Below, piece after piece: positions 18,713 through 20,602 of a stretch of 64,000 bases of DNA. The notes under the pieces are model-generated. The model did not search any database. It was not told where the DNA came from and worked only from the letters and a program-made list of their open reading frames with translations. Location of the stretch: positions 1 through 64,000 of the forward strand of contig JADLFV010000108.1 in NCBI GenBank assembly GCA_020849625.1, given 5' to 3'. A program made the position numbers and the translations under genes. Positions within the stretch are counted from its first letter, which is position 1. Each line of letters opens with the position of its first letter. Source of the DNA: Phycisphaeraceae bacterium (lineage in GTDB: Bacteria; Planctomycetota; Phycisphaerae; Phycisphaerales; Phycisphaeraceae).

Positions 18713-20329
18713 TTAGCTGGGGGTTTCGATCAGGAAGTAGGTGAAGGCATCCGACAGCGCTTCCCAGGAGGCATCTACGATGTTCTCGTTGACTCCGGTC
18801 GTGCTGAAACGTCGGACCACCGATCCCTGGCCGTTCTTCTGCCGCACCGCGAAGTCGATAATGACCCGCACCTTGGCAGCCGACTCGGCCGTGGGGTTGA
18901 CCACCCGCACTTTGTAGTCGGTCAGATGGATACTGCCCAGTTGCGGGTAGTGGGGCTCCAGTCCCTTGCGCAGGGCGCCATCCAGGGCATTGATCGGGCC
19001 GTCACCCTCAGCCACGTGGTGTTCGAGCCGGCCGTTGACGGTCAGCTTCACGATGGCTTCGGTGCCGCAGGGTTCGCCGTTGCGCTTGAGGATCACGCAG
19101 CGGTAGTGGTCCAACTCCCAGAAGCTTCGCCGCTTGCCCAGCACCTCCAGCAGCAGCAGCTCGAAGCTGGCCTCGGCGGCCTCGAACTGGTAGCCGCGGT
19201 TCTCCAGGTCCTGCACGCGCTCCAGCACCATGCGTTGCAGTTTTTTGTCCTCGCTGATGTCGTACTTGCGTCCCAGCATGGCGACCACGTTGCTCGCCCC
19301 GGCCAGCTCGCTGACCAGCACCCGCCGCGTGTTGCCCACCGACTCCGGCGGCACGTGCTCGTAACTGCGTGCCAGCTTCTGCACCGCATGCACGTGCATG
19401 CCGCCCTTGTGAGCAAACGCACTGGTGCCGACGTACGGCTGGTTCGCCTGCAGGTTCAGGTTGGCGATCTCATACACATAGCGCGACAACTCCGTCAGCC
19501 TCATTTCGGCGCCTGAGACTAAACACTCGTGGCCCATTTTCAGTGTCCGATTGGCGACCACCGGGATCAGGTCCCCGGTGCCGCAGCGCTCGCCGATGCC
19601 GTTGATCGTACCCTGCACCTGGACGCAGCCGGCCTCCACTGCCGCCAGGGCGTTGGCCACCGCCACGGCCGAATCATTATGAGGATGCACCGCCAACAGA
19701 CCATCCGTTTTCACTTTCCACTTTTCACTTTTCACTTTCACCTCGTTGACGGCCAGGCTGATCCAGTTGGGTAGCGATCCACCGTTGGTGTCGCACAGCA
19801 CCAGGCGCGTGGCGCCGCCGTCGAGGGCCGCCTGCAGGGTTTGCAGGGCGTAGTCCGGGTTGGCCTTGTAGCCGTCGAAAAAATGTTCCGCGTCGTAGAA
19901 GACCTCCCCCCCGGAACCGTGCTTGGCGCAGAAGGCCACCGACTCGCGGATCATGTCCAGGTTTTCCTGTTCGCTGACGTCCAGCACCTGCTTCACGTGC
20001 AGGTCCCAGGTCTTGCCCACGATGGTGATCACCGGCGTTTTGGCGGCCACCAGCGCTTTCATCCCCGTGTCTTCTTCCGCTTGAACACCCTTGCGCCGCG
20101 TCATGCCGAAGGCGCACAGCTTGGCGTGCTTGAACGTCAGCTTGCCCGCCTCCTCGAAGAACGCGGCATCCTTGGGATTGCTTAAGGGGTAGCCGCCCTC
20201 GATGTAGTCGAAGCCCAGCTCATCGAGCATCTGCGCGATCTTGAGCTTATCGACCAGCGAGAGGTTGAACCCCTCAGCCTGCGTGCCGTCGCGGAGCGTG
20301 GTGTCGTACATTTCGATGCGGCGTGTCAT
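18713..20329 (-). CDS. cimA: (R)-citramalate synthase
   Basis: CimA condenses pyruvate and acetyl-CoA to citramalate, the first step of the threonine-independent route to 2-oxobutyrate and isoleucine. The 538-aa protein has the isopropylmalate-synthase-family start YDTTLRDGTQAEG, a TIM barrel with GERCGTGDL and HPHNDSAVAVANA metal-binding motifs, the SAFAHKGGMHVHA signature, and a C-terminal regulatory domain. The arrangement fits the CimA branch rather than LeuA. Residues about 197-208 (VKVKSEKWKVKT) are encoded by AGTGAAA tandem words in frame. An isoleucine-rich leader attenuator lies upstream, matching the pathway. Confidence 0.93.
   Translation of the reverse strand: MTRRIEMYDTTLRDGTQAEGFNLSLVDKLKIAQMLDELGFDYIEGGYPLSNPKDAAFFEEAGKLTFKHAKLCAFGMTRRKGVQAEEDTGMKALVAAKTPVITIVGKTWDLHVKQVLDVSEQENLDMIRESVAFCAKHGSGGEVFYDAEHFFDGYKANPDYALQTLQAALDGGATRLVLCDTNGGSLPNWISLAVNEVKVKSEKWKVKTDGLLAVHPHNDSAVAVANALAAVEAGCVQVQGTINGIGERCGTGDLIPVVANRTLKMGHECLVSGAEMRLTELSRYVYEIANLNLQANQPYVGTSAFAHKGGMHVHAVQKLARSYEHVPPESVGNTRRVLVSELAGASNVVAMLGRKYDISEDKKLQRMVLERVQDLENRGYQFEAAEASFELLLLEVLGKRRSFWELDHYRCVILKRNGEPCGTEAIVKLTVNGRLEHHVAEGDGPINALDGALRKGLEPHYPQLGSIHLTDYKVRVVNPTAESAAKVRVIIDFAVRQKNGQGSVVRRFSTTGVNENIVDASWEALSDAFTYFLIETPS
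19708..19742 (-). repeat. AGTGAAA tandem words inserted in frame inside cimA
   Basis: The plus strand reads TTTTCACTTTCCACTTTTCA and continues with two more words. It is the same heptamer as the element at 9505. It encodes alternating Lys/Val/Glu/Ser/Trp (residues about 197-208) in a loop before the HPHND motif, and the frame is preserved. Confidence 0.85.
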
Positions 20330-20340
20330 GGGTAAGTCCA

Positions 20341-20441
20341 GTGAGTAGGGAGTAGGCAGTCGGCAGTAGGGGGGATTCGTTCTTTTCTTGTGTCTTGGGC
20401 AGCAGACCCTATTGCCTACTGCCTACTCCCTATTGCCTAAT
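20341..20441. repeat. Inverted tandem-word element (GGAGTAGGCAGTA word) in the cimA leader
   Basis: The left arm (20341-20370) reads GTAGGGAGTAGGCAGT; the right arm (20407-20441) is the complement built of ACTGCCTACTCCCTATT. It lies between the attenuator terminator and the cimA start, so any readthrough mRNA carries the hairpin 11 bases before the cimA ATG. A single arm of the same word occurs at 28511. Confidence 0.85.
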
Positions 20442-20442
20442 T

Positions 20443-20466
20443 AAAAAACCCCGCCTCGCGGCAGGG
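20443..20466 (-). terminator. Attenuator terminator upstream of cimA
   Basis: On the minus strand CCCTGCC (20466-20460), loop GCGA, GGCGGGG (20455-20449) and six T (20448-20443) form an intrinsic terminator. Its 5' arm plus two bases, CCCTGCCGC, is perfectly complementary to GCGGCAGGG at 20510-20502, which directly follows the leader stop: a mutually exclusive antiterminator. The leader start region (20564-20550) can in turn pair with 20509-20495, completing a classical 1:2, 2:3, 3:4 set. Confidence 0.85.
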
Positions 20467-20510
20467 TGGTCAGCTTCCTTGGGTTTCCAGTGGATGGCCG
20501 GCCCTGCCGC

Positions 20511-20564
20511 TTAATGCGTGGGAATCTCGATAATCGCGATGATGGCGATGGCGAGGTTGGCCAT
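20511..20564 (-). CDS. Isoleucine-rich leader peptide of the cimA attenuator
   Basis: The 17-residue reading frame MANLAIAIIAIIEIPTH contains six Ile codons (residues 6, 8, 9, 11, 12 and 14) in a nine-residue span. It is followed at once by an antiterminator arm and then by a terminator, the arrangement of the ilv and his leader peptides. When charged tRNA-Ile is scarce, stalling at the Ile codons would free the antiterminator and let cimA be transcribed. A promoter (TATACT) lies 10 bp before its ATG. No other role is likely for so short a frame. Confidence 0.85.
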   Translation of the reverse strand: MANLAIAIIAIIEIPTH

Positions 20565-20574
20565 AAGTTCCACA

Positions 20575-20602
20575 AGTATAGTCGGCCTTCCAATCGGGGC
20601 AA
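20575..20602 (-). promoter_or_regulatory. Promoter of the cimA leader
   Basis: On the minus strand TTGCCC (20602-20597) and TATACT (20580-20575) are 16 bp apart. Transcription would begin very close to the leader-peptide ATG at 20564. Confidence 0.65.

Follow-up and report, generated by a model that had tools for sequence, protein, structure and literature searches.

A predicted isoleucine leader-peptide attenuator upstream of the citramalate synthase gene cimA in Planctomycetota

Transcription attenuators of the enterobacterial ilv, leu and trp operons combine a short ORF rich in codons for the end product with overlapping antiterminator and terminator hairpins, and the position of the translating ribosome serves as the sensor. 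Among further described systems, the ilvBNC attenuator of Corynebacterium (ilvB-II motif) resembles the element reported here in its leaderless ORF, in an arm that is shared by both hairpins and in its branched-chain pathway, whereas it differs in phylum and gene, in its Leu and Val control codons and in a stable anti-antiterminator hairpin that is part of the model (PMC11857589, PMC10272879). The trpL leader transcript of Sinorhizobium meliloti begins at the leader ATG, similar to the start proposed below, but it concerns tryptophan and again another phylum (PMC7298713). Candidates upstream of ilvB, leuS and trpS were described for actinobacteria (PMC1262725). They are comparable in having been discovered by sequence comparison and in including aminoacyl-tRNA synthetase genes as targets, but belong to another phylum; in the accessible portion of that study the ilvB ORFs overlap the terminators, codon-based regulation of ilvB is doubted and cimA is not mentioned.

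The element described here was analyzed in a stretch of 64,000 nt from a Phycisphaeraceae bacterium (contig JADLFV010000108.1; in the following the window). On the minus strand between 20602 and 20443, a promoter, an Ile-rich leader ORF, an arm, its complementary arm and a terminator follow each other in 5'-3' direction (Table 1). An earlier note on this DNA had claimed an isoleucine leader-peptide attenuator, and its promoter, its 17-codon frame with six Ile, the arm, the exact complement and the terminator with six T were all recovered at the positions it had given. The Ile codons of the leader are, in order, ATC, ATC, ATC, ATT, ATC and ATT. The shared arm is the exact reverse complement of GCGGCAGGG, from which it is separated by 35 nt, and since both hairpins use it, antiterminator and terminator are mutually exclusive, as had been proposed. 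The terminator is located 114 nt upstream of the putatively controlled gene, which had been named as cimA; its product matches the TIGR00977 equivalog with 622.8 bits (cut-off 450), while 2-isopropylmalate synthase models score far under their own cut-offs.

Table 1. Positions of the features that make up the predicted cimA attenuator in the window
Feature	Position	Strand	Remarks
Promoter-like sequence TTGCCC-16-TATACT	20602-20575	minus	TTGCCC 20602-20597, TATACT 20580-20575, 16-nt spacer; 1 found, 0.2 expected
Leader ORF MANLAIAIIAIIEIPTH, 17 codons	20511..20564 (ATG 20564, TAA 20513-20511)	minus	Seen in the sequence; Ile-rich leaders kept in relatives
Antiterminator 5' arm GCGGCAGGG	20510-20502	minus	Immediately 3' of leader TAA
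Shared arm CCCTGCCGC	20466-20458	minus	Antiterminator 3' arm and terminator 5' arm
Intrinsic terminator, 8-pair stem ACCCTGCCGC-GAGGCGGGGT, GCGA loop, T6	Stem 20467-20448, T6 to 20443	minus	
GGCCAT	20499-20494	minus	Can pair with leader-start ATGGCC (20564-20559); possible protector pairing
cimA, citramalate synthase, predicted controlled gene	20329-18713 (ATG at 20329)	minus	TIGR00977

Like the enterobacterial ilv, leu and trp attenuators, the cimA element has an ORF rich in codons for the end product, overlapping hairpins and, as predicted, sensing by ribosome position. Unlike them, it precedes a citramalate synthase gene, is near-leaderless, lacks a strong 1:2 protector hairpin and carries its antiterminator arm around the stop codon or immediately behind it. 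Moreover, the cimA leaders of the window's family use Ile codons only, whereas ilv leaders mix Ile, Val and Leu. At the level of sequence, all defining features of ribosome-mediated attenuation except the protector hairpin are present; the working principle is the classical one, while the phylum and the genes are new. The earlier note knew of no description for cimA in this phylum, and none for an attenuator upstream of cimA or in Planctomycetota was found in the open-access literature, with subscription journals outside the scope of the search. In Rfam, at gathering as well as lax thresholds, no family covers the cimA leader, and only tRNAs reach the gathering score in the window.

We consider it highly probable that the element is a ribosome-mediated transcription attenuator which senses charged isoleucyl-tRNA and controls cimA. 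From its parts and their spacing, together with the conservation and the arm covariation described below, we infer the following course of transcription start, leader translation, stalling and termination. RNA polymerase would initiate a few nucleotides 5' of the leader ATG, and a ribosome would load at the near-leaderless start. With Ile-tRNA charged, the ribosome would pass the Ile codons, reach the stop codon and mask the arm located at or just after it, so that the terminator could fold and transcription would stop near 20443. When Ile-tRNA is scarce, the ribosome would stall on an Ile codon, in the window 4 to 12 codons ahead of the stop; the free arm would then pair with CCCTGCCGC, no terminator would form and the polymerase would enter cimA.

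To describe how widely the arrangement is kept, the upstream regions of 220 distinct cimA homologues were collected, 43 from the window's family and the remainder representing other Planctomycetota plus a small number of neighbours. They were screened with a detector that demands a short ORF rich in Ile, followed 10-110 nt past its stop by a terminator whose 5' arm forms a helix with the stop region. The detector embodies the expected features, and its chance rate was measured. It matched 93 of the 217 regions of at least 300 nt, or 75 and 52 when four and five Ile were demanded, respectively, and gave no match in the reverse complements of these 217 regions or in 2170 shuffles (ten of each region). 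With any other residue in place of Ile, matches in the cimA upstream regions were far fewer. Across the window, the only match in 566 overlapping tiles on both strands was the cimA attenuator. Within the family, 33 of the 43 cimA loci are positive, counting locus L015, where the architecture is retained but the true leader, which ends within GATAGGG, has two Ile only; the ten members without an attenuator by this detector include several good assemblies. Outside the family, some matches with three Ile or a doubtful arm are candidates. Terminators are present in 116 of the 217 cimA upstream regions, compared with 18 in their reverse complements, and in nearly all leader-bearing family members. 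Among all short ORFs within the 300 nt upstream of family and order cimA genes, the densest cluster reached a mean of 3.89 Ile per nine codons (1.43 after shuffling), and Ile was the sole strongly enriched amino acid.

The arms differ between groups in a concerted manner. Family members typically have CGGTAGGG, an arm that encloses the UAG stop codon and whose partner is the terminator sequence CCCUGCC. Planctomycetia, among them Gimesia and Thalassoglobus, carry CUGAGG or a similar arm, which contains UGA or lies close to it and pairs with CCUCAGG. Between the two types, GG-UAG-GG/CCCUGCC is thus exchanged for C-UGA-GG/CCUCAGG, the arm enclosing the stop codon; this joint change of the stop codon and both terminator arms is a compensatory switch. 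The window contains a variant in which the arm directly follows UAA. Because the core arms are nearly invariant in the within-family alignment, covariation was assessed across types and by swapping arms, using 75 loci at which stop and terminator had been picked blind to pairing. Complementarity was 20.3 for arms of the same locus and 15.2 for arms swapped between loci, the observed mean being reached in 0 of 5000 permutations. This permutation keeps kinship within groups, which does not account for the drop to 10-12 when arms were exchanged between the two structural types. The antiterminator is furthermore lengthened by pairing of the spacers after the stop and before the terminator (0 of 2000 permutations), and base pairing between Ile codons and arm was not above chance in the family comparison. 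Conserved Ile codons and covarying stems in the cimA leaders of relatives, which the earlier note had suggested as a check, were accordingly both found. Its third pairing, with the start of the leader, fared less well: ATGGCC at that start and GGCCAT after the stop are present in the window, but form six pairs only and are absent from the minimum-energy fold. In the family, the corresponding pairing was -9.04 kcal/mol for own and -7.92 kcal/mol for swapped sequences (9 of 2000 permutations), a modest comparative support with which a protector hairpin is possible.

RNA folds were computed without the RNA covered by the ribosome, taking as an assumption that about 12 nt downstream of the A-site codon are covered. 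With this extent, the arm lies just beyond the reach of a ribosome at the last Ile and is covered by one at the stop. The window RNA was predicted to form the antiterminator with a stalled ribosome and the terminator with a ribosome at the stop. Of the 39 family and order leaders, 29 gave the antiterminator with the ribosome at the last Ile and 38 the terminator with the ribosome at the stop. In other Planctomycetota, the minimum-energy fold with a stalled ribosome still favoured the terminator (29 of 39), which points to a kinetic switch governed by the order of synthesis, or to some misdetected arms. The minimum-energy fold of the ribosome-free RNA is the antiterminator; the off state would therefore depend on leader translation, and according to these folds the default state without a ribosome may be on.

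The arrangement is not restricted to this genome or to cimA, but recurs through the phylum and upstream of a second gene. When 51 family genomes were searched with a DNA pattern of the family arrangement, the matches included cimA sites and sites in front of the isoleucyl-tRNA synthetase gene. With ileS identified by a TIGR00392 search, the same Ile leader and switch were detected in the upstream regions of 22 of 47 family genomes, with none on the reverse strand; the ileS of the window's own genome has no attenuator. These sites also bear on a different reading, in which the hairpin belongs to the upstream gene (minus-strand ORF 22139-20628) as its terminator, with short ORF and complementary arm lying there by chance. 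That ORF is on the same strand and ends 161 nt ahead of the terminator, and intergenic terminators are common. However, relatives retain the Ile codons, the position of the stop and the pairing of the arms to a degree far above chance, and the same unit precedes ileS, another Ile gene, elsewhere, which makes a mere terminator of the upstream gene very improbable. In the window's genome, ilvC, ilvD and a leuA-like gene likewise gave no attenuator, nor did ilvB at 16 loci in 16 genomes. With sites at cimA and ileS and none at the ilv genes checked, control would act at the entry step specific to Ile and at the charging of Ile-tRNA, and not at the shared ilv steps.

Within the leaders, relatives preserve the Ile codons as well as both competing pairings, as expected for the attenuator that the earlier note had claimed, while the remaining peptide sequence drifts; beyond Ile clusters and codons overlapping the arm, the peptides have little sequence in common. 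The last Ile codon is located 4-8 codons ahead of the stop in 39 of 39 family and order leaders, and stop and terminator are 27-43 nt apart. The leaders contain 118 ATT, 68 ATC and 3 ATA codons, compared with 62 ATT, 540 ATC and 17 ATA in the cimA genes, some of which are represented by partial sequence. The resulting preference for ATT (odds ratio 15, Fisher p 7e-46, with codons treated as independent and genomes being related) means that the leaders use the less favoured Ile codon, which fits a stalling site. Some cimA leaders (loci L066, L094, L078 and L084) combine Ile with Val, for example AAIAIPAAPGVRTVAIIATVVVITTG of Gemmata, and may sense Val too.

The codon bias is strong enough to argue against a riboswitch or T-box that senses isoleucine or tRNA-Ile directly and next to which the leader ORF would be incidental. 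Such elements likewise end in a terminator and antiterminator output, and ileS is among the typical targets of T-boxes in other phyla. However, the conservation sits in codons and arms, the gap of 27-43 nt between stop and terminator is too small for a T-box, and of the Rfam families searched, with the T-box among them, tRNAs alone reached the cut-offs in the window; under the lax threshold, the leader matched unrelated families alone, all below their cut-offs. Direct sensing is for these reasons extremely improbable. Equally improbable is a leader encoding a functional small protein, with the RNA pairing merely ending its own short transcript, for although leader peptides acting in trans exist (peTrpL of Sinorhizobium, PMC7298713), the little shared peptide sequence fits codon sensing better than a conserved product.

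Ribosome-mediated attenuation at these loci would start from a nearly leaderless transcript. In about 31 of the 39 family and order cimA leaders, a TATAAT-like box ends 6-10 nt ahead of the leader ATG, other distances being rare, and the same holds for 15 of the 22 ileS leaders. The gap between -10 box and leader ATG is 10 nt in the window, which leaves a 5' UTR of about 4 nt and no space for a Shine-Dalgarno site. Transcription is expected to start around 20568, 3-5 nt before the ATG, and the leader is probably near-leaderless in the window and in most family members. An alternative in-frame start, GTG 20573, lies 1 nt downstream of the -10 box, probably outside the transcript. A leaderless leader is unusual but not unique, with Sinorhizobium trpL and Corynebacterium ilvB as precedents. 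As most detected family leaders appear near-leaderless, the system bears on the coupling of leaderless translation to transcription in Planctomycetota.

Carriers of the cimA attenuator include the cultured strain Poriferisphaera heterotrophicis ZRK32 (leader MTTANASIIAIAIIITYPM), Thalassoglobus neptunius, Rhodopirellula maiorica, an uncultured Gimesia and, weakly, Gemmata sp. IIL30. It was not found at the cimA loci of Bythopirellula, Aquisphaera, Singulisphaera and four PVC/Omnitrophota, nor at the top-scoring cimA loci of other families in the phylum (L125-L154). A phylum search for the CTGAGG/CCTCAGG type gave 11 genomes from three genera of one family, several of them cimA sites already counted. 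Upstream of cimA at locus L238, a -10 box, the leader start and a GGTAGGCAGG remnant (GGTAGG) remain, while the Ile codons and the terminator are gone; this sequence is apparently a decayed attenuator copy. For ZRK32, strand-specific RNA-seq in rich and basal medium was reported (PMC10945688), and the predicted attenuator is immediately testable in this strain. Through the proposed control, amino-acid attenuation would reach a deep-branching phylum as well as citramalate synthase, a pathway entry step with little-known control, and the shared RNA design would define an Ile regulon of cimA and ileS.

The same design also precedes aspS in the window's own genome (leader MLTAPTNANRQDHTPQGR, locus L316, ~1160-1335) and in a second genome (leader MRYPFGAPGGNGHNNPSPSR, locus L269); by the detector, it is absent upstream of aspS in 23 other relatives. 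The codons of both leaders suggest sensing of Asn and not of Asp, which would fit a non-discriminating AspRS. We tentatively consider, as a possibility somewhat short of an even chance, that near-leaderless attenuators serve Planctomycetota as a modular sensor. A single terminator/antiterminator chassis, whose arm contains or adjoins the stop codon, would be combined with Ile codons at cimA and ileS (the Ile regulon) and with Asn-containing leaders at aspS, and tRNA charging would take the place of the T-boxes or repressors used for sensing in other bacteria.

A further observation concerns the region between the terminator and the cimA start, where an inverted pair of a GGGAGTAGGCAGTAGGC-type repeat is located (20346-20371 and 20407-20432, inside 20332-20440). 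None was seen at the corresponding site upstream of cimA in the relatives inspected. The repeat has 81 matches genome-wide and is therefore a dispersed REP-like element; its inverted pair forms a strong predicted hairpin (z -5.2) that ends just 5' of the cimA start.
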